Assembly (NCBI RefSeq): GCF_002355595.1
Contig: NZ_AP017422.1
Location: 6,762,823 to 6,826,822 of the forward strand
Direction of reading: 5' to 3'
Source of the DNA: Filimonas lacunae
Lineage (GTDB): Bacteria; Bacteroidota; Bacteroidia; Chitinophagales; Chitinophagaceae
Length of the DNA stretch: 64,000 nt
The notes beneath the pieces are model-generated. The model worked only from the letters and a program-made list of their open reading frames with translations. It made no database searches and was not told the DNA's origin. Both the position numbers and the translations under genes were made by a program. This document shows positions 4,228-21,847 of this stretch, one piece after another (position 1 is the first letter of the stretch; every line of letters begins with the position of its first letter).

Positions 4228-6057
4228 TTAATCTTCCAGTTTATTCCACCAGGTTCGTTTTAAAATAAGAATGATGATTACAAGAATAACTACGGTTATC
4301 AGCAACGGCAGTTGCAACCACAACACCACATACATTGGCAGTATGGTTAAACAACATTGTGCTATAATACCCAGCACTACATTAAACATGTCCAGTTTAA
4401 AGCGCCTGTTAGGCTGGAAGCCGGGGTTTTCGGCTACTACCAGCGCATGCACGGGTTTCCAGAAACCCCAGGGTTTTACAGTTTTATAGAATGATTTTAA
4501 AGTAGCTTCTTCTGCAGGGGGAGCCATATAAGTGCCTACGATTGCGCCGGCCAGTGATATTACAAACAGCAGTGGCCAGTAATACAAAGCCAACCCGGTA
4601 AACACAAAAGGAAACACCAGCGCGGCGGCAATGCCACACATCATGCCCCAGAAAAAGCCACTGGCGTTAAAGCGCCACCAGTACCATTTTAATACGTTGG
4701 CCGCAATGTAGCCGCCATATAAAGCGCCTACTATCCACTGTAACACACTGTTTACATCTTTGGCAAAAAAGCCCAGCACCACACCAATAGCCACTACCAC
4801 AATACCTACCAGGTAGTTGAGCCTGATCACTTTTTTAGTGGATGCATTCGGGTTTACATACTTGAGATAAATATCATTGACAATGTAGGCCTGCGCTGCA
4901 TTTAAAGTGCCGGAGAAGGTGCCCATAAAAGCACCCAGCAAACCGGTTAACACCAACCCCATAATACCTACCGGTAAAAAGCTGTTGATAGCAGCCGGTA
5001 ATATGCGTTCAAAGTCGGTGCCGGTGGCTGTTTTTACATCCAGCTGGTTATAGTATAACAAAGCCAGCACGGTTAAGCCTATTACCATAGCGTAGCGGAT
5101 AGGCAGCAGGATGATAGACACAAAGCCCGTCATTTTACTGGCTTCCCTGGGCGACCGGGTGCTTAACACCTTTTGCATATCGTAGTTAGGTGCAGGCCCT
5201 GCCAGGCTGGCGAAAACACCTTTAAACAACATCATCATAAAAAAGAAACCAAACACGCCAAAACCATCTTCTTCAATTTTCTTACTGGCATCGGGCACAA
5301 TCTTACTCCAGTCGAGATTCAGGTGCCAGTTAAAGAAAGGACTGTTCCAGCCCTCTGGCACCGCCAGCGGTGCATTAGCCTTGTGCAGGTGCAGCATGGC
5401 AATAATGGCTATGGAAATACAAGCCACTGTCATAATCACATACTTGATTACATCGCCTAACACAATGCTGTGCATGCCCCCTAATATGGAATAGAACATG
5501 GCAAATAAGGTAAACACAATGCCATAGAAATGCGGTACGTATTCGGGCGGGATGGTAAAAGGCACATAAGGCTGTACCTCACTCCACGGAACAAATATTT
5601 CAATAAACTTACCCAGGCCCACAAAGCCATAGGCCAGGAAGCCGAAGCAGCTTAACAAGGCAAAAGCCACTACAATCGCATGCGAGCTTTTAATGCCTTT
5701 ACCCACCCGGCCAAAGCGGGTGGCCAGCCATTCGGCACCGGTGTTGGCATTAGAGCGACGCAGCCATTTGCTTAAAAACATCATCATAAACACCTGGTTA
5801 AACACCGGCCACAGCCAGGGAATCCAGATACTTTTCATACCATATACAAAGCACAAAGCCACCATCCACATGGTGCCGCTGATATCAAACATATCACTGG
5901 CATCGCTCAACCCCAGCATATACCAGGGCAACGACTTACCGCCCAGCAGGTAACTTTCGTTACTTTCCCTTGCTCTTTTTCTCAATGCCCAGCCAATCAC
6001 TATCATGGTTATTAAATAACCCAGTATGATAGCTATGTCCAATAAGTGCAATTTCAT
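4228..6057 (-). CDS. Sodium:solute symporter (SSS family), likely mannobiose importer
   Basis: Inner-membrane transporter of 609 residues with about 13-14 hydrophobic helices spread along its length. SSS-family signatures include the ILGYLITMIVIGW first helix, the ESYLLGGKSLPWYMLG segment, the SILGGMHSIVLGDVIK motif and GAFMGTFSGTLNAAQAYIVND. Family members couple solute uptake to sodium. Placed between the mannanase and the phosphorylase/epimerase pair, it most likely brings mannobiose or short manno-oligosaccharides into the cytoplasm, as proposed for the equivalent gene in the Bacteroides fragilis mannan cluster. The start Met is 33 bases after the mannanase stop. The substrate is inferred from neighbours only. 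Confidence 0.88.
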   Translation of the reverse strand: MKLHLLDIAIILGYLITMIVIGWALRKRARESNESYLLGGKSLPWYMLGLSDASDMFDISGTMWMVALCFVYGMKSIWIPWLWPVFNQVFMMMFLSKWLRRSNANTGAEWLATRFGRVGKGIKSSHAIVVAFALLSCFGFLAYGFVGLGKFIEIFVPWSEVQPYVPFTIPPEYVPHFYGIVFTLFAMFYSILGGMHSIVLGDVIKYVIMTVACISIAIIAMLHLHKANAPLAVPEGWNSPFFNWHLNLDWSKIVPDASKKIEEDGFGVFGFFFMMMLFKGVFASLAGPAPNYDMQKVLSTRSPREASKMTGFVSIILLPIRYAMVIGLTVLALLYYNQLDVKTATGTDFERILPAAINSFLPVGIMGLVLTGLLGAFMGTFSGTLNAAQAYIVNDIYLKYVNPNASTKKVIRLNYLVGIVVVAIGVVLGFFAKDVNSVLQWIVGALYGGYIAANVLKWYWWRFNASGFFWGMMCGIAAALVFPFVFTGLALYYWPLLFVISLAGAIVGTYMAPPAEEATLKSFYKTVKPWGFWKPVHALVVAENPGFQPNRRFKLDMFNVVLGIIAQCCLTILPMYVVLWLQLPLLITVVILVIIILILKRTWWNKLED

Positions 6058-6090
6058 GTTCTGTTGTATTTCTGTTGAAGCCGGGTTTAT

Positions 6091-8442
6091 TTACTGGTAT
6101 AACTTTTCTTTGGCCACATCCTTCTCAAACAGGGAATTGCTATAGCCATACATTTTAATAAAATCTGCGGCCGAAGCATCCTGCTTACGGGGTACATAAT
6201 AATGCCATTTGCCGTTGGGTTGCTGGCCATGATTGCGCCAGAACATAATATAGCTCAGTGCATAGCCTTCCCTGGCCTTCCACACCGTTTCGGTAAACCA
6301 TTTGTCGTAAGGAATAGCTTCATAACCTGTTTCGGCAAAAGCGGGTATTTTACCTCTTTCTTTAGACAGTTTATCTATAATGCCAAAACGCAATTGTTGT
6401 TGTTTAAAAAAGCTGCTATCTGTACGCGGATCGGCATACTGGTAGCTGTCAAAGCTTAACACATCGGCATAGGCGTCGCCGGGATATCTTTCTAAAAAGC
6501 CCGCTTCGCTGGTAAAGTCGTTGCTGTTAAATACATACAATAAGTTGTGCAGGCCTTTTACATCCCGCATATATTGTACGGTATAACGCCAGATGGCTTT
6601 TAACTCATCCGCGGTGCAATAAGGCTTACCCCACCAGAACCAGTTGCCTTCCAGCTCGTGAAAAGGACGAAACAACACAGGAACAGGCTCGCCATTAGCG
6701 CCTTTTAAAGAACCCAGAAAAGCCGCCACTTTATCTAACCAGGTATTGAACAATGCATGCTTAGCGCCACCGGGTAAGATCTGTGCCACCGAGCCTGCTG
6801 TGGTATCCCAAGCCGATGCGCCGTTCACCGGGTTATCGGCATGCCAGCTGATGGTAATAACACCGCCACGCTGGTACCCCTGCTGTATATATGCACGCAT
6901 TTTATCAAAAGGCACGCCGTCGATATTAGCAGGCAGATCGTGTTCTATATTACCCAGCTCCCAGCCATACAACGCAGGGTAATCGCCGGTGAGTTCTTTT
7001 ACATCGCTTTTACCCGCTACATATTTCCAGCCTACGCCATAGGCCAGATCGTCCTGGTGGCCGATCATGGTGCCTTTAGCCAGCAGACGGTGCAGGTTGT
7101 TGTATAAGTTCACGGTTTTAGAAGTAGCCTGCACATCTACCGGCAATTGCTTTGTTCCCTTACCCAGCGTAAAGGCAGTGATCACTTTCCAGGTGCTGCT
7201 ATCGCCATCAAACACACCGTTCAGCCCCTGCTCTTCCATGGGTGGATCGCCGGAAAAGTCATCTCCGTTTTTCCAGTACACCTGCCCCGGTATGGGACGG
7301 GCTGTTCCGCTGAATGCCCAGAAATTAACACCTGCTAAATAGCCTTGTGTTTGTGCCTGCTGTTGCCAGAGTGAGAATATATTGTAGAAGTAATGATCGC
7401 GTAAAGAAGTAGAAGCCTGCAGGCTAAAGGAATGACCATTGCGTGGAATACCAAACTCTTCTACCACCAACGGCTTTTGTAACTGACGGGCAACTTCCAG
7501 GTGCTTCTGTATATAAGCAATTGCCCTGGTTTCTACCGCGGGCATATCTGCTTCTAACGTGGCTTCGTGCAACCAGCCCCAGTTTTTAGGCCAGATATGG
7601 ATGGTGAGATAATCCACATTCTTATCCGTATGAATAGCTTTGTACAGGTTCATATCTTCTGTACCCATTTCTCCTTCATGCCCTAATGTGATAAGATGGT
7701 TTTGATCTTTTGACCGGATAAAAGCTGCTGTAGCGCTGATCCATTGCTGGTAAGCGCTGGCCGCCGCCGGGCGCATAGGGCGCGGCTCGTTGGCCAGCTC
7801 CCAGGCCATAATAGCCGCATCGTTGGTATAAGCACGTTTAGTAACGGAGTTTACACGGGCAAGTACGTAACCTACCTGCTTCAGGTAAGCCGCTTTGCAG
7901 GCATCGCAGGAATAAAAACGGGCTGTTTCGTCACGCAGTTCATCCCAGCTCATCTTCTTTCTAAAAGTGGCATCGTCAATAATACGGTTCCATTGCAGGT
8001 ATTGCAAAAAGCCGCCGCTCCACTCCCAGTTGTTACTGAGAAAAAGCACCGCCTTCATATTTCTTTTGCCCATTTCGGCCAGCACTATGTCCAGCCCCCG
8101 CATGGCTTCTTCGCTAAAAACCCCTTGTTGTGGTTGCAGTGGCGGCGATACACGTTGTACACCATTTACCTGGCCCTCCCCTTCGGCACCAGCCAGCAAA
8201 CGAAGATTGGTTACCCCTTTTTGCTGTAAAAAGTCCAGTTCTTTACGCAAGCGTTCGATACCATGCTTTTTATCTTTCAGCAAACCCAGGTAACCACCGT
8301 ACCAATAGTTAGCACCTATATAATAATAAGGCTTACCATGGAGTGTAAACTTACCGCCCTGCTGCTTTACAAAAGGCAGTGGCGCAGCCGCCACGCCTTT
8401 TGATAAACAAACAGCTAACATTATTACAATCAATTTTCTCAT
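6091..8442 (-). CDS. Bimodular endo-beta-mannanase, GH5 plus GH26
   Basis: Secreted 783-residue enzyme with a signal peptide (1 to about 20) and two catalytic barrels. Residues about 25-430 look like a GH5 (subfamily 7-like) mannanase. WELANEP carries the acid/base Glu219, and LVVEEFG carries the nucleophile Glu329. Residues about 440-780 are a GH26 mannanase. It starts at YNNLHRLLAKGTMIGHQDD, has the acid/base Glu596 in RPFHELEGNWFWWG, and has the nucleophile Glu704 in AFAETGYE. Both active sites look intact. The signal peptide has no lipobox, so it is probably periplasmic or secreted rather than a lipoprotein. It sits 21 bases after the TIG lipoprotein gene. It should cut beta-1,4-mannan, glucomannan or galactomannan and deliver mannobiose to the downstream pathway. 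Confidence 0.92.
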   Translation of the reverse strand: MRKLIVIMLAVCLSKGVAAAPLPFVKQQGGKFTLHGKPYYYIGANYWYGGYLGLLKDKKHGIERLRKELDFLQQKGVTNLRLLAGAEGEGQVNGVQRVSPPLQPQQGVFSEEAMRGLDIVLAEMGKRNMKAVLFLSNNWEWSGGFLQYLQWNRIIDDATFRKKMSWDELRDETARFYSCDACKAAYLKQVGYVLARVNSVTKRAYTNDAAIMAWELANEPRPMRPAAASAYQQWISATAAFIRSKDQNHLITLGHEGEMGTEDMNLYKAIHTDKNVDYLTIHIWPKNWGWLHEATLEADMPAVETRAIAYIQKHLEVARQLQKPLVVEEFGIPRNGHSFSLQASTSLRDHYFYNIFSLWQQQAQTQGYLAGVNFWAFSGTARPIPGQVYWKNGDDFSGDPPMEEQGLNGVFDGDSSTWKVITAFTLGKGTKQLPVDVQATSKTVNLYNNLHRLLAKGTMIGHQDDLAYGVGWKYVAGKSDVKELTGDYPALYGWELGNIEHDLPANIDGVPFDKMRAYIQQGYQRGGVITISWHADNPVNGASAWDTTAGSVAQILPGGAKHALFNTWLDKVAAFLGSLKGANGEPVPVLFRPFHELEGNWFWWGKPYCTADELKAIWRYTVQYMRDVKGLHNLLYVFNSNDFTSEAGFLERYPGDAYADVLSFDSYQYADPRTDSSFFKQQQLRFGIIDKLSKERGKIPAFAETGYEAIPYDKWFTETVWKAREGYALSYIMFWRNHGQQPNGKWHYYVPRKQDASAADFIKMYGYSNSLFEKDVAKEKLYQ

Positions 8443-15983: not shown

Positions 15984-16229
15984 ATGATGCAGGAAGAAGA
16001 GTTGCCAGGCCTTAACCCACAAATATTACAGGACCTGGTAGAAGCTAAAATGCCATTTGGCAAGTATAAAGACACCGTGCTTTGCAATATTCCTGTCTCA
16101 TACCTGGAATGGATGAAACGCAACGGCGGCTTTCCCAAAGGAAAGCTAGGCATGCAACTGGCTACCCTGTTTGAGATAAAAACCAACGGGCTGGAAGACT
16201 TACTAAAGCCGCTGAAAAGAAGATATTAA
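15984..16229 (+). CDS. DUF3820 family small protein
   Basis: A small cytoplasmic protein of 81 residues. The DUF3820 signature covers most of it: MPFGKYKDTVLCNIPVSYL, then EWMKRNGGFPKGKLGMQLA. The family is widespread in Bacteroidota and Proteobacteria and has been called a putative quorum-sensing-regulated virulence factor, but its biochemical role is unknown. Two consecutive ATG codons (15984 and 15987) could serve as the start. It has its own promoter candidate and terminator, so it is probably a single-gene unit. Confidence 0.85.
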   Translation: MMQEEELPGLNPQILQDLVEAKMPFGKYKDTVLCNIPVSYLEWMKRNGGFPKGKLGMQLATLFEIKTNGLEDLLKPLKRRY

Positions 16230-16238
16230 AATAAAAAC

Positions 16239-16262
16239 GGCCTGCAGTTGCAGGCCATTTTT
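16239..16262. terminator. Bidirectional terminator between convergent genes
   Basis: GGCCTGC at 16239-16245 pairs with GCAGGCC at 16250-16256 around a four-base loop. T residues follow on the plus strand, and an A-rich stretch precedes the stem, which becomes a U-tract on the minus strand. It can therefore end both the DUF3820 gene and the B12 operon. Confidence 0.8.
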
Positions 16263-16296: not shown

Positions 16297-17181
16297 CTAC
16301 TGGATATGTAAGTCAGCAGCGCCCAAAATTTCAGTGGATACTTCGCCTACAACAGCATTACCTGCACCGTTTTGCCCGGTATACACCTTTACAAAATCAA
16401 TTTGCGTAAGGCTTACACTGGCACCATTGCCGTTCACTGCCTGCGAAATATCAAAGCTATTGTACTTATTAGTGGTATAGTTATCACCCGAACTCCAGCT
16501 ATCTGCATAGCCCCTGGTAAAGGAAAGGTTCGTATACGACCCGGAAGTGTTGACAAGTGTATTTCTTAACAACGTGCCCGTAAAGCTCACCGAATCCTGA
16601 CCTGTTATAAACAGCGGATAATAGTTGGCCTGTGAATGATAGATATTCACCAGTACCGAATCAGTTTTGCCCCGGCTATCGCGCCACAATACGTTTGCCC
16701 GCTTTTTCGGGTTGTAATAGGTGATGGTATAATGTTTAATAGTAGCATCACTGGTATATTCACTGCCTGCCAGTTCGTACCACTCGTCGTCGGGCAAACC
16801 GTTACTATTTACATCGCGACTTACCATTACAATACCCGGCTCGGACCATTCTGTAGCAGGTGGCGGCAATGGATTGCCATAAATGGCAATGTCAGCACCA
16901 TCACTATTTTGCACCGCATGATCAAAGCCAAATACAATATACCCGCCATAAGCGCCTAATGACACTGTACCGCTGATACCACCAATTAAAGTAGCAGGAG
17001 CTTTATCAATGCCCCAGGTGCTGTCGTTGATAAGCTGCCCCGGTGCAGGCACGTAAGCATATACTTTACTGATATAACGACTGCGCCCCACTGTTTCATC
17101 CTTATCTTTTTTACAAGAAACCGCTACAACGCCTGCGCACACAGCCAGCAGGTATATCTTTTTTGGTAAGCCCCAATTCAT
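16297..17181 (-). CDS. Surface lipoprotein with EF-hand-like loop, B12-operon partner
   Basis: A 294-residue lipoprotein with lipobox VAVSCKKDKD (Cys23). It has no catalytic motif I recognise. The central segment DVNSNGLPDDEWYELAGSEY (residues 123-142) reads like a calcium-binding EF-hand-type loop, followed by a beta-rich C-terminal half. Proteins of this kind are usually annotated as cell surface or PKD-type proteins, and my recollection is that they often lie beside BtuB and YncE-like propellers in Bacteroidota. It starts 18 bases after the propeller gene stop and is the last gene of the riboswitch-controlled operon. It may help bind or hand over corrinoids at the outer membrane. That role is inferred from position only. 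Confidence 0.8.
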   Translation of the reverse strand: MNWGLPKKIYLLAVCAGVVAVSCKKDKDETVGRSRYISKVYAYVPAPGQLINDSTWGIDKAPATLIGGISGTVSLGAYGGYIVFGFDHAVQNSDGADIAIYGNPLPPPATEWSEPGIVMVSRDVNSNGLPDDEWYELAGSEYTSDATIKHYTITYYNPKKRANVLWRDSRGKTDSVLVNIYHSQANYYPLFITGQDSVSFTGTLLRNTLVNTSGSYTNLSFTRGYADSWSSGDNYTTNKYNSFDISQAVNGNGASVSLTQIDFVKVYTGQNGAGNAVVGEVSTEILGAADLHIQ

Positions 17182-17199
17182 GATGCTTTATTTATATGC

Positions 17200-18264
17200 T
17201 TATAAATTTAAAAACACACAGTTTTGTGGTGCTTTGCTGGTAGCAAACTGAAACTTCAGTTTACCTGCAGAGGAGAATACATATACCAGATCTTTACCGG
17301 CAGCGTAACCAGCATTGGCAACATATACATCTCCATTGGATGGATTTACAGTAGCAGCATAAATGTTGCTAGGGGTAGTGCCATCAGTAATAAAGCTGGT
17401 GCCTTCGCCAGTTGTTACATTGTAGCTTTTTATGAACGAACCAGTGCCATCATAGCCTGTTGCATATACAGCATCCGCACCTGCTGTAAACCAGCTGATA
17501 TTGGCATCTATAGTTTTTGCCACCACATCAGTAGCGCTACTGATAACAGATACAGAAGCTGCGATATCATCATAATTACCGGCTGAAGCCACAAACACAA
17601 ATCCGCTGCCTGCTGCAACTTTAATAGGACTAAAACCTACACTGATTTGACCTGTTTTTTTAAAGGTGGCAATGTCAATTACCGAAACAGAAGAATTATT
17701 GGTAGAAGGCAGTGTATAGTTATCTGAATTAGCAACATACAGCTTGTTGCCGGATGCAGCAATACCTTCCAGTACACCATCTGTTTGCACAGTAGCATCT
17801 ATTTGTAAAGAAGAAGTATCTATACGGCAAACCATACCATTATAGCAGGAAACATAAGCTTTGTTGCCATTGAATGCTACAAAACGGGGCTGATAAGCCC
17901 TGGTACCAGAAGCGAAAGATATTTTAGATAACAGTTTGCAGGTTGCCACATCTATTACCAGCACATAAGAATCGCTTAAAGTAGCAGTGTCTTTACCGCT
18001 TACGGTGCAATACATTTTACCGCCATACTGTTTTAAATCATTAGCGCCGTTACCCAGTTTGGTGCCGTTTACTGTTTTATAATAGTTCCAGTCAACGGTT
18101 TGCGTGCTTGCATTATAAAAGGCGATAGCACTGCTATCTGTTTCAGAAAAGTTCCCTTCTGTTAACACATATACACCACTAACGGCTGGTGCAGCATCAT
18201 CTTTTTTAGAACAAGAGAAGAACACAGCAGCTAACATGGGTACTGCGAAAAGTAGCTTTTTCAT
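17200..18264 (-). CDS. YncE-like beta-propeller lipoprotein, BtuG-like (second copy)
   Basis: A 354-residue lipoprotein with lipobox AAVFFSCSKKDD (Cys18). A start at 18264 is preferred because it gives a clean signal peptide and leaves 20 bases after the upstream stop. A longer reading would overlap the upstream gene and spoil the signal. The body is a seven-bladed propeller with repeated VIDIAT-type strands (SYVLVIDVATCKLLSKI, VSVIDIATFKKTGQI, VSVISSATDVVAKTI) and LYVANSDNY. The related BtuG of Bacteroides thetaiotaomicron is a surface propeller that binds cobamides very tightly and docks on BtuB. The riboswitch and receptor upstream support a corrinoid-binding role here. It is clearly related to, but diverged from, the preceding gene. 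Confidence 0.83.
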   Translation of the reverse strand: MKKLLFAVPMLAAVFFSCSKKDDAAPAVSGVYVLTEGNFSETDSSAIAFYNASTQTVDWNYYKTVNGTKLGNGANDLKQYGGKMYCTVSGKDTATLSDSYVLVIDVATCKLLSKISFASGTRAYQPRFVAFNGNKAYVSCYNGMVCRIDTSSLQIDATVQTDGVLEGIAASGNKLYVANSDNYTLPSTNNSSVSVIDIATFKKTGQISVGFSPIKVAAGSGFVFVASAGNYDDIAASVSVISSATDVVAKTIDANISWFTAGADAVYATGYDGTGSFIKSYNVTTGEGTSFITDGTTPSNIYAATVNPSNGDVYVANAGYAAGKDLVYVFSSAGKLKFQFATSKAPQNCVFLNL

Positions 18265-18284
18265 TTTTGCTTTTTTTACTTTTT

Positions 18285-19424
18285 CTATTTGGTTATAAAG
18301 GCTATATGTGCGGGTATGTCTCCGGCCGTTACCGACCATTTCTTTTTACCCGTTTTATCAAAACAATACAAAGTGCCCGAGCTTACATAATCTTTGGCAT
18401 CTGTTACAAATATGTCGCGGTTAACAGGGTTTACCGCAATGCCATAAGGCACTTTAATAGACGCTGCCGTTCCATCCGTAATAAAGCTTTTGCTTATAAT
18501 GGTTTCTGTTTGCACATTCACCAACGCATAGCTGATGGTGTTGGAATTTGTGTTGGCATTCCATTCTGTACTTAACACATAAGCCGAATCGCCTTGTATA
18601 CAAAGATTACTGGCGCCCAGGGCAAAAGAATCTTTTACGGCATCGGTTTGTGTGTTCACTACAAACAGCCTGGACGATACACCGTAATAACTGCCACGTG
18701 AGGTAACATAGATATCGCCATGCCTATCCGCTTTTAAACGATGCAGGTTAATAGCCACATCAATGCGTTTGGTTTCGGTAAAGCTGGCGAGGTCTACTAC
18801 CGACACGGTACGATCGTAATTAGCAGGCGTGTAGCCACCGGAATTGGCTACATATAATTTACCGTTCACCACCGCCATTTCTTCTGGCTGGCGGCCCACA
18901 TTCACTTGGCGGGTTATTTGCAAAGTAGCGGTGTCAATTTCAGCCACAAAACCTGCACCTGCATTAGCATTGCCTGCCGTGCTGGCATAAGAGCTTACAT
19001 ACGCCTTGCCATTGTAAAAGGTGATATACCGACAGTTTTGTATGGCAATTACTCCCACACGTTTGGCCGTGGTTACATCCATCACTTCCACCTTATCGCT
19101 GAGGTTAATAACGGCGTATAGTTTGCCGCCATATACCTGTATATCATTTCCCACATCCCCCAGCTCTTTGGTGGCAGTGGGGTTTATTTGCGGGTAAATA
19201 TTGCGATAGTAAACGCCGGTGTTATAATTAAACCTGTCCAGCGATGCTTTGTTCAAACCCATGTCACCTTCATTCAACAGGTAAAAGCCATTGCCTGTTG
19301 CTACATCCGGCGATTGCACACTTATCTCTTCCTGTGTAGCCACGGGCGTGTCTTTACGACAAGCCGTTGCCAGCAGCACAATGGCTGCCATCAGTTTCGG
19401 GGCTATCTGTTTCATTCGCTTCAT
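18285..19424 (-). CDS. YncE-like beta-propeller lipoprotein, BtuG-like (first copy)
   Basis: A 379-residue lipoprotein with lipobox LLATACRKD (Cys22). Propeller blades are marked by VEVMDVTTAKRVGVIAI, GFVAEIDTATLQITRQVNVG, GKLYVANSGGY and VSVVDLASFTETKRIDV, ending with PVNRDIFVTDAKDY. This is the YncE/DUF5074 type of surface propeller. It is directly downstream of the BtuB-like receptor, with a 12-base gap, as BtuG is next to BtuB in Bacteroides. The expected role is capture of vitamin B12 or other cobamides at the cell surface and delivery to the receptor. Two consecutive copies in one operon suggest different ligands or a two-lid complex. Ligand binding is inferred from family and context. 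Confidence 0.86.
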   Translation of the reverse strand: MKRMKQIAPKLMAAIVLLATACRKDTPVATQEEISVQSPDVATGNGFYLLNEGDMGLNKASLDRFNYNTGVYYRNIYPQINPTATKELGDVGNDIQVYGGKLYAVINLSDKVEVMDVTTAKRVGVIAIQNCRYITFYNGKAYVSSYASTAGNANAGAGFVAEIDTATLQITRQVNVGRQPEEMAVVNGKLYVANSGGYTPANYDRTVSVVDLASFTETKRIDVAINLHRLKADRHGDIYVTSRGSYYGVSSRLFVVNTQTDAVKDSFALGASNLCIQGDSAYVLSTEWNANTNSNTISYALVNVQTETIISKSFITDGTAASIKVPYGIAVNPVNRDIFVTDAKDYVSSGTLYCFDKTGKKKWSVTAGDIPAHIAFITK

Positions 19425-19436
19425 GTGTTGTTATCA

Positions 19437-21443
19437 TTAATAATGCACACTCAAAGAGATGCGATAAAAACGTCCCGGCATAGGGAAGTTTCTAACTACA
19501 TCATAATACTGGTTACATACATTGTTTACTTCCAGCATCAGCCTACCTGTATACTTTTTATACCGGAAGCTTTTGCCTGCTGATACATCATGTGTATACC
19601 AGGGTTGCAGGTAGTTGGCAGCAGTATTCTCTTTTTGGAAATACCGCCCACCTGTGTATAAAAAGCTATAGTTGAGCATCCAGGTTTTATAAGTAATGCC
19701 AGCTATGGCAGAACCACTGTTCTCAGGTGTATAGATGATCTGATTTTTATAGTAAGGATCGGCAGGGTCGCTTACATCCTGAGCCTGTTGCCAGGTATAG
19801 CTGGCACGGGTAGTGAGCTCCCAATGCTGCGCAGGTTTATATACGCCCTGCATACTTACATCCAGCCCCTTAATCTGTACCTTATCCAGGTTCATGATAG
19901 TCCAGCGAAACAGCCTTCCGCTGGGGCTGGCAATAATTTTATCTTTCACCCGGTTGTAATAAGCATCCACCTGTGTAGTCAATAATAGTTTGTTAGCGGC
20001 CAGGTATTTTGCGTAGGTAATGCCCAGGTTGTATTGTTTGGCAAACTCCGGCTTTAAGCTGGTGTTACCCACTTCGGTATAATAGAGATCGTTAAAAGTG
20101 GGCATGCGAAAGATGTTTTTATAAAACGCCCGCACATGAAACGCAGGAGAAGCAAATGGCTGCCACGAAGCAGAGACAGCCGGCGTTAACTCCTGCCTGT
20201 TGCCCGCAGGTACGCCCGTACGCACATTTTCATTTACAAACGTAGCCAGTGCGCTGCCTTGTATGTCTATTCGTGCAAAATGCAATTGGCTGGCTAAGGA
20301 AGCCAATGTGGTATAACGTGTAGGATAAGCGAAATTATACAGGTTAGCATTCATGCTATTCCGCTGAAAGTCGCCGGATAAAGCCACATCCCAGAAGGAG
20401 GTTAATTGATAGTGATTGGCAGCAGAAAAATAGAATTCATTTTGCCGGTAGTAATTATTCAGGTAACCGCTGGTGGTTACAATTTCCTGGTCGTTGTAAT
20501 GGGTGTAGTCATAAGCATATTTGGCATTCAGCATCAGGCTGTATTTGCCGGTGATATTCTTTTTCCACGAACCTTGTGCAAAAAAGCTTTTATCCCACAG
20601 GCGCTGCCCGTGTTCAAACTTATTGGCTACTACTGCCCCGGGAAGGCCGCGTGCCGAGGTATAATAATAGGCTTTTACTTTCCATTCGCTGCTGTCTTTA
20701 CCCGTGCCATCCAACCCCGCTTCCAAACGCCAGGAGTTTACATCGGCATTGTAGCGGGTGGCGGTGGTATCATATCCCCCTTCCATCGCATACCGGAACG
20801 GATAGCGCCCATTGGCATTGGTCCACTCACCACTAAAAGAAGCACTGGTGCGATGAGAAAGCTTTTGTTGCCATAACACCGAAGGATTTACCAGGCCAAA
20901 CGAACCGGTTTTATATTTCGCGCTCAGATGTATGGTTTCGTTGGCGGCAAATACCGGTTTACGCGATTGCAGGTAAATAGCATTGCCCGATGCAAATGCC
21001 TTAGCTGGCTGAAACACCGCATCTTTTTGTCCGCTATACAGCGAAATCTCTTCTATATTATCCAGCGAAAAACGTCCAAGGTCTATCTGGCCGTTCTGAG
21101 CATTGCCTAACTGAACCCCATCGTAAAAAACACCCGTATGGTTACTACCCATGCTGCGCACGTTGATGGTTTTAAGCCCCCCCACACCGCCATAGTCTTT
21201 TAACTGTATACCCGAGAAAAAGCGAACAGCGTCTGCCACAGATAAACTATTGAGCCGTTGCAGGGTTTCGCCCGACAGGGTTTGTGCAGGCGTGAGTGAA
21301 GTAGTGGGCAGTTTGCGAATAGCATTTACCCGCACCTCGGCCAGTGTATCTTTTGCATGCATTACCTGCTGCGCCAACAGGCTTCGGAATGGAAGCATGC
21401 CCGCGCTGAGTAAAAGCCACTTAACAGGTACTATTCTTTTCAT
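19437..21443 (-). CDS. btuB: TonB-dependent vitamin B12 receptor BtuB
   Basis: Outer-membrane receptor of 668 residues. It has a signal peptide (about 1-25), a short TonB-box-like segment DTLAEVRVNAIRK, a plug domain (about 45-160, including GVGGLKTINVRSMG and YSGQKD) and a barrel ending FYRISLSVHY. It lacks the N-terminal carboxypeptidase-like domain of SusC proteins and has the size of BtuB. The cobalamin riboswitch in its leader is the decisive clue: the gene should be switched off when intracellular B12 is high. It heads an operon with two BtuG-like lipoproteins and a third surface lipoprotein. No periplasmic or inner-membrane BtuFCD genes are present in the window. Confidence 0.93.
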   Translation of the reverse strand: MKRIVPVKWLLLSAGMLPFRSLLAQQVMHAKDTLAEVRVNAIRKLPTTSLTPAQTLSGETLQRLNSLSVADAVRFFSGIQLKDYGGVGGLKTINVRSMGSNHTGVFYDGVQLGNAQNGQIDLGRFSLDNIEEISLYSGQKDAVFQPAKAFASGNAIYLQSRKPVFAANETIHLSAKYKTGSFGLVNPSVLWQQKLSHRTSASFSGEWTNANGRYPFRYAMEGGYDTTATRYNADVNSWRLEAGLDGTGKDSSEWKVKAYYYTSARGLPGAVVANKFEHGQRLWDKSFFAQGSWKKNITGKYSLMLNAKYAYDYTHYNDQEIVTTSGYLNNYYRQNEFYFSAANHYQLTSFWDVALSGDFQRNSMNANLYNFAYPTRYTTLASLASQLHFARIDIQGSALATFVNENVRTGVPAGNRQELTPAVSASWQPFASPAFHVRAFYKNIFRMPTFNDLYYTEVGNTSLKPEFAKQYNLGITYAKYLAANKLLLTTQVDAYYNRVKDKIIASPSGRLFRWTIMNLDKVQIKGLDVSMQGVYKPAQHWELTTRASYTWQQAQDVSDPADPYYKNQIIYTPENSGSAIAGITYKTWMLNYSFLYTGGRYFQKENTAANYLQPWYTHDVSAGKSFRYKKYTGRLMLEVNNVCNQYYDVVRNFPMPGRFYRISLSVHY

Positions 21444-21639
21444 AATTATTTTACTACAGGCACGACAGCAAAATATCAGGCCGTATAGGTAAATGATAGT
21501 TCATGCTTGTATCGTTCCTTTCGGAAAAACGGAATACGGTTTACCGTTGCAGCAGCAACAGCTAACAGGAATAAAAAATAAAAAATTGCTTTTTGACCTT
21601 TCTATCCAGCTTCAATCCCCGAAAGCGATGAATATCTAT
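21444..21639 (-). promoter_or_regulatory. Leader between riboswitch and btuB, candidate expression platform
   Basis: About 195 bases of untranslated leader. CTGCAACGG (minus strand, 21552-21544) is perfectly complementary to CCGTTGCAG at the 3' edge of the riboswitch (21648-21640). Nearby, GTTGC-TGCT-GCAAC can form a competing local hairpin, and an AT-rich U-run lies at about 21562-21580. These parts could switch between two folds, but the mechanism is inference. Confidence 0.45.
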
Positions 21640-21833
21640 CTGCAACGGGCAGGTCTTCTGACTTGTTTGCTGTTGTATCACCTTCCCATAGCCTTAGTGG
21701 CTACAGTGGTATTGTGGAATAAACAGCGGCAATAATGAGTTGCCTGGAAACTTACAGCTGCGGGACAGTTCCGGATTTACACCGGATTCCCTTTTAATAC
21801 ATACCTTCCGAACAGGAAGAAATGTAACCTGAT
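21640..21833 (-). ncRNA. Cobalamin riboswitch
   Basis: Read on the minus strand, all main consensus blocks are present in order. A P1-type arm CAGGT (21831-21827) comes first. GGGAATCCGGTG then AAATCCGGAACTG, followed by TCCCGCAGCTGTAA, spans 21791-21752. AGCCACT (21702-21696) and GGGAAGG precede the B12 box, AAGTCAGAAGACCTGCC, at 21664-21648. ACCTG in that box can pair with CAGGT. It lies in the leader of the BtuB-like receptor operon. The class binds adenosylcobalamin or other cobalamins and lowers expression when B12 is plentiful. The exact ends are approximate. Confidence 0.95.
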
Positions 21834-21839
21834 GCGGAG

Positions 21840-21847
21840 CAAAGGTA
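21840..21847 (-). promoter_or_regulatory. Promoter -7 box for the B12 operon
   Basis: TACCTTTG on the minus strand exactly fits TAnnTTTG. It would start transcription at about 21834, directly at the 5' edge of the riboswitch. A -33 element is not obvious. Confidence 0.6.

Follow-up and report, generated by a model that had tools for sequence, protein, structure and literature searches.

In the described systems closest to the locus studied here, BtuG is a hinged lid on the receptor BtuB, whose loop EL8 dislodges B12; the BtuBG complex is monomeric, the BtuG2 lid capping the BtuB2 barrel with an interface of 3463 Å2, and BtuH is a surface binder with no stable association with BtuBG in the parts of that account available (PMC10404256). 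BtuH is itself a known B12-binding protein, according to the accessible sections of its description (PMC8941943), and a survey of gut strains, as far as its available text goes, counted 106 BtuG homologues in 106 of 109 btuB operons (PMC6143338). The usual description gives each BtuB receptor a single BtuG as its lid; at the present locus a single receptor is accompanied by two BtuGs that appear to belong to different deep lineages.

The window (the whole stretch of 64,000 nucleotides of Filimonas lacunae DNA that was analysed) contains a vitamin B12 uptake operon of the known Bacteroidota type, with a receptor, a lid protein and a capture protein, plus one unusual extra, a second and strongly diverged BtuG-like protein designated propeller B. 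The features of the operon are as follows.

21631..21847, minus strand: cobalamin riboswitch aptamer (RF00174) in the operon leader; cmscan 107.3 bits, E 6.9e-26
19437..21443, minus strand: BtuB1-type TonB-dependent cobalamin receptor, 668 aa; phmmer match to BtuB1 (8blw_A), 1.5e-162
18285..19424, minus strand: propeller A, putative BtuG lid lipoprotein, 379 aa, Cys22; BtuG1 propeller, 8ptf 1.3e-46 and 8blw 2e-46
17200..18264, minus strand: propeller B, second, diverged BtuG-like lipoprotein, 354 aa, Cys18; BtuG1 (8blw), 2.2e-40
16297..17181, minus strand: BtuH-type cobalamin-binding lipoprotein without extra N-terminal domain, 294 aa, Cys23; BtuG1 H-domain 4.5e-51, BtuH2 (7biz) 5.3e-48
16233..16262, minus strand: intrinsic terminator-like hairpin and T run; 13-pair stem with 6 G-C pairs, TTTTT tail

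The genes follow the riboswitch in the order BtuB, propeller A, propeller B and a short lipoprotein (BtuH), all on the minus strand, and the gaps between them of only 12 nt (BtuB/A), 20 nt (A/B) and 18 nt (B/BtuH) suggest a single transcript, which would be repressed by B12. The riboswitch match is full length (model positions 1–189; gathering score 31.5), and RF00174 was also found at all ten related BtuB loci scanned. A search of the minus strand between the aptamer and btuB for an expression platform gave no terminator-like site, and the leader fold had a z of -1.38; the hairpin 3' of the last gene is terminator-like as a consensus match only. Each of the three small proteins carries a hydrophobic signal, then a cysteine and then a stretch rich in K and D (CRKDTP, CSKKDD and CKKDKDE). 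The span of 16297..21833 given to the operon in a first-pass annotation covers its genes and stops 14 nt before the 5' end of the riboswitch. Beside the end of the operon lies a small ORF (15984–16229) that is convergent with it and belongs to the QSregVF_b family (PF12843, 103.5 bits).

The match of the receptor to BtuB1 of Bacteroides thetaiotaomicron spans residues 44–668, with the Pfam Plug (53.8 bits) and TonB_dep_Rec barrel (120 bits) both over their cut-offs; under the NCBIfam equivalog TIGR01779 it scores 96.1 bits against a curated cut-off of 599.7 and so falls outside that model. The EL8 aromatic residue is kept, W514 aligning with BtuB3 Y538, BtuB2 F523 and a Trp of BtuB1; in a check of the BtuB3 numbering on 8p98, Y538 and L531 agreed with the paper and Ser524 did not (I in that index). 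Propeller A, 12 nt 3' of btuB and with its lipobox at Cys22, matches BtuG1 over residues 46–365, falls in clade I of the propeller tree and retains 50/50 positions conserved in both BtuG clades, being itself among the 58 clade I rows that helped to define those positions. It is a predicted surface lid lipoprotein, the fold of both propellers being taken from homology alone. Because A keeps all 50 positions and the receptor keeps its EL8 aromatic, the BtuB–A pair is expected to operate by the standard pedal-bin mechanism. Two BtuB-type receptors are encoded in the genome, and the operon of each also carries a clade I BtuG.

The short lipoprotein had been put forward in the first-pass annotation as a new accessory factor, a status removed by its matches to the BtuG1 H-domain and to BtuH2, which make it a homologue of the known BtuH. 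The BtuH contacts named in the accessible part of PMC8941943 were placed on the 7biz chain, where all eight letters agree at one offset. The polar contacts Gln333, Asn399 and His476 are kept as Q49, N103 and H182, while Trp511 is changed to Tyr, Tyr510 to Ser (S215), Trp577 to Val (V277), Leu578 to Val and Phe401 to Leu. Among 109 BtuH homologues (window included) the three polar contacts are found in 108, 108 and 103 respectively and the other contacts are variable; as Trp577 is W in only 84/109 and Tyr510 is Y in only 71/109, with T at position 510 in the BtuG1 H-domain, these two residues do not define BtuH overall. The same protein had been described as an EF-hand-like surface lipoprotein: it is instead a BtuH, and the EF-hand-like look probably comes from the stretch DVNSNGLPDDEW, which aligns with DENGNGLPDDEW of the BtuG1 H-domain and DINGNGLPDDEW of BtuH2. 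We infer that this stretch is a calcium site of BtuH; the pattern occurs in a strict form in 18/109 homologues and in a looser form in 52/109.

The mechanical ORF of propeller B begins at 18339; we set the start at the ATG at 18264, 20 nt after the stop of A, because the lipobox and Cys18 come after that ATG. Propeller B is homologous to BtuG1 over its full length (residues 53–367 of the long ORF). It also scores 58.9 bits against DUF5074 (PF16819), over the gathering cut-off of 27.2, and in the comparison of loci it scored 62 bits, under the 100-bit line that we used as our own threshold for the strong DUF5074 subfamily. It retains 36/50 of the positions conserved in both BtuG clades, with 42/50 retained in its orthologue at locus L131 and 38/50 in the second propeller of locus L082. 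The single lid of L158 likewise retains 36/50 (0.72), and 17/53 conserved positions are changed in propeller B and in the single lid of L223 alike; since these single lids, each with its own BtuB, are equally altered, the residue loss in B is not by itself proof of a lost lid function. More specific changes were found at two places. At alignment column 266, where NSGG has its first glycine, G is present in 93/93 ordinary lids and in BtuG1, and BtuG2 has a gap; both B orthologues have D there and the second propeller of L082 has P. The asparagine of the VN..S motif, kept in 90/93 ordinary lids, is replaced by S or T or falls in a gap in these three second propellers, and residues are inserted beside it in both B proteins (window and L131). 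A common signature of the independent second lids was considered and rejected: the overlap had a P of 0.11, the columns were picked post hoc and the L082 copy has an insertion at column 266. At the BtuG2 ligand site, which the first-pass annotation had singled out for comparison, the outcome was divided, the Tyr316 equivalent being kept in B and the Tyr335 equivalent lost; the L131 orthologue keeps the latter. This comparison covered Tyr316 and Tyr335, the alignment being too gapped at Trp194 and Trp272.

Between the window and L131, B is the most diverged of the four proteins, with 42% identity by comparison with 66% for A, 57% for BtuB and 58% for BtuH. The codon usage of propeller B also differs from that of its three operon mates (CAI 0.637 versus 0.48–0.50; GC3 0.31 versus 0.44–0.50). 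High expression was rejected as the cause because the signs are mixed, T at fourfold sites being 0.43 in B, 0.19 in A and 0.55 in ribosomal genes, and the twofold NNC fraction being 0.27, 0.30 and 0.55 respectively; an AT-rich or foreign composition fits at least as well, and the codon usage is perhaps the trace of a separate acquisition.

Tandem duplication of A was considered as the origin of propeller B and was rejected, as an AU test excluded B from A's sub-clade (p-AU 0.000474). A quick tree of 99 rows placed A in the large clade I and paired B only with the L131 copy (support 100), and in a careful 44-row tree A and B lay on opposite sides of a branch with 100/100 support, B being with clade II and BtuG1 and sister only to the L131 copy at 5064–6185 (100/99). 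Placement of B on the BtuG1 side is not firm, as a tree with B held with all of clade I passes the AU test (p 0.249). Given the rejection of B inside A's sub-clade, propeller B is by these phylogenies an old separate lineage and did not arise as a copy of the adjacent gene; the one further member found belongs to a different genus of the family. The second propeller of L082 lies in clade I beside its own neighbour's kin (100/99 for four rows). As B does not group in this way, the trees suggest that two-BtuG operons had at least two origins, by different routes. Propeller B is also optional: both other genomes of the genus examined have one A-type match each and no B, and adjacent pairs are rare.

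To place the arrangement we scored 162 loci. These were the window itself, the best 80 of 590 loci retrieved from named genomes with its BtuB, the other BtuB operon of the window's genome, and 80 regions taken from genome searches. Since the choice followed resemblance to either BtuB or propeller B of the window, and some genomes are represented more than once, the locus frequencies are not phylum frequencies. BtuB, BtuG and BtuH are consecutive in 100/162 loci of this sample, with its best 80 of 590; the order is common there and only propeller B is unusual. Removal of exact BtuB repeats left 155 loci with BtuB, 148 of them also with a full-scoring BtuG on the same strand, and in this set, drawn as it is in part from the best 80 of 590, two full-scoring BtuGs were present in 4/148 loci, one of which (L058) has two BtuBs; one receptor with two full-scoring BtuGs was therefore found in 3/148 non-redundant loci, namely the window, L131 and L082. 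In the same set, again including the best 80 of 590, 63/148 loci have a further, strong DUF5074 propeller encoded on the operon's strand in the stretch retrieved. Searches with propeller B gave matches in 59/394 family, 56/396 order and 59/395 phylum genomes, these draws overlapping; an adjacent pair of BtuG-like matches was present, among the matches listed, in 2/394 family genomes, that of the window and G006, with at most five candidates scored per genome, so that weak second propellers may be missed.

These counts, together with the RF00174 match and the BtuB1 and BtuG1 homologies, bear out the first-pass reading of the locus: a B12 uptake operon led by a riboswitch, in which a single receptor is accompanied by two BtuG-like propellers that differ markedly from each other, an arrangement rare in the sample. 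The further suggestion made there, that the two propellers bind different corrinoids, may hold, A having the full BtuG signature and B a partly lost one. The rule of one BtuG per BtuB stands for BtuG proper in gut strains, in the available text of PMC6143338, and does not extend to propellers in general since 63/148 loci add a DUF5074 propeller. The literature searched contained no account of a BtuB that has two BtuGs, most subscription papers, all bioRxiv preprints and the supplements being outside its coverage.

We propose that when B12 is scarce the riboswitch permits expression of the operon and that BtuH and propeller A would capture corrinoids at the cell surface. Propeller A would be the hinged lid of BtuB and, on its closing, the EL8 loop (W514) would dislodge the vitamin into the barrel, from where TonB-driven import would follow. 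Propeller B, encoded between btuG and btuH, would be an extra BtuG-like surface lipoprotein that stays off the core complex and, like BtuH, captures corrinoids and hands them off. The most likely function of propeller B is corrinoid binding, in an accessory or alternative capacity; the BtuH-like accessory role is supported by the lost glycine at column 266, the altered VN..S motif, its optional presence and its greater divergence than its neighbours. Counted against this role is that B keeps many conserved positions, including the Tyr316 equivalent, so that a lid role is possible. We hold the whole account, with B in a BtuH-like accessory role and not as a second simultaneous lid, at even confidence.

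If B were instead an alternative lid, A and B would compete for the one BtuB and give two transporters with differing corrinoid preference. Propeller B is a full-length relative of BtuG with no receptor of its own, both BtuB-type receptors of the genome being operon-paired with a clade I BtuG, and the trees point to two or more origins of two-BtuG operons along different routes; B nevertheless lacks the glycine kept in every ordinary lid compared, residues are inserted at its VN..S motif, and we consider this reading possible but doubtful. The same loss of conserved residues, with the greater divergence of B from its neighbours, could alternatively mean that B no longer binds corrinoid and has another role at the surface or in vesicles, or is a decaying copy. 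There are precedents in the accessible part of PMC12751083, where of the similar pair BtuK1 and BtuK2 only BtuK1 bound cobalamin, and where BtuL promotes vesicle release without cobalamin binding. The intact reading frame, lipobox and export signal of B, its presence in two genera at an identical operon position and its retained Tyr316 equivalent speak against such a loss, which we regard as unlikely. A complex with both propellers on BtuB simultaneously, as the first-pass annotation had entertained, draws on gene order only; as a single BtuG in the available account (PMC10404256) spans the top of a monomeric BtuB and buries a large interface with it, and A alone has the needed features, this is very improbable.

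More broadly, second BtuGs may constitute a functional class of their own with two or more origins, made up of lid-derived propellers whose ligand pocket has been reshaped and which are retained beside a normal BtuB–BtuG pair, either to capture other cobamides or to swap onto the same receptor and so change its specificity; we offer this only tentatively. The operon offers a natural test of whether lids can be exchanged, of which part, lid or barrel, determines the preference for cobamides, and of how a lid could become a free capture protein.

Elsewhere in the genome there are five other cobalamin riboswitches besides that of the operon. One precedes the second BtuB–BtuG operon, which has BtuH-like and DUF4465 (BtuJ family) genes. 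Another (about L096:7842–8028) precedes prpB-prpC-prpD of the methylcitrate cycle (L096:4130–7656, minus strand), a B12-independent way to burn propionate; others precede the B12-independent isozymes MetE and the small and large subunits of class I ribonucleotide reductase (L097:4910–7318 and L097:8509–11944, minus strand), and a DUF5074 propeller of this genome also lies behind a cobalamin riboswitch (G000:C1:4176035–4177027; L095/L263). The genes behind these riboswitches either serve B12 uptake or stand in for B12-dependent functions, which is the pattern expected of a B12 scavenger. In 98 family genomes there were nine strong DUF5074 (PF16819) matches (≥198 bits), six of them with a cobalamin riboswitch within 1.5 kb and the remaining three in BtuB operons (L150, L140 and L159); none of the 11 weaker DUF5074 loci scanned had one, another 10 weaker loci being outside the scan. 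Strong DUF5074 lipoproteins (L258–L266 are among the loci concerned) are propellers of a kind other than BtuG and appear to belong to the B12 regulon, and the linkage of PF16819 to DUF4465 B12 genes was already noted in the available part of PMC13398666.

The split BtuB–BtuG–BtuH system, studied in gut Bacteroides, is seen here in a large-genome bacterium of another family. Locus 1 of B. thetaiotaomicron, BtuB1–BtuG1(BtuGH) (PDB 8BLW), likewise has a receptor, a BtuG propeller and a BtuH domain under a cobalamin riboswitch, but there G and H are fused in one protein, whereas in the window they are separate genes with the second propeller between them; BtuG1 also lies outside clade I and propeller A inside it. 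Fusions like BtuG1 were seen at L242:5878–7848 and L248:5044–7128, and their positions in different parts of the propeller tree suggest more than one fusion event. By comparison with BtuH1 and BtuH2 (PDB 7BIZ), the BtuH of the window aligns over the whole B12-binding domain and shares Gln333, Asn399 and His476; it differs from BtuH2 in having Val for Trp577 and Ser for Tyr510, and is without PKD domains, as reported for BtuH1 in the accessible sections of PMC8941943. The BtuB–BtuG–BtuH operons L128, L133 and L134 of the same family have the order and riboswitch class of the window (BtuB identity 59, 55 and 54%) but one full-scoring BtuG where the window has two; L128 and L133 additionally carry a DUF5074 propeller. 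L082, from an uncultured Bacteroidaceae, has BtuB-G-G-H behind a riboswitch and then two DUF5074 propellers, its second BtuG being apparently of independent origin. At L131 (G006; same family, genus probably Chitinophaga), BtuB-A-B-H follows a riboswitch as in the window, and its B, at 42–46% identity, is the only orthologue of the window's propeller B that was found; this locus differs from the window in a DUF5074 propeller upstream of BtuB, making three propellers, and in a longer BtuH of 387 aa.
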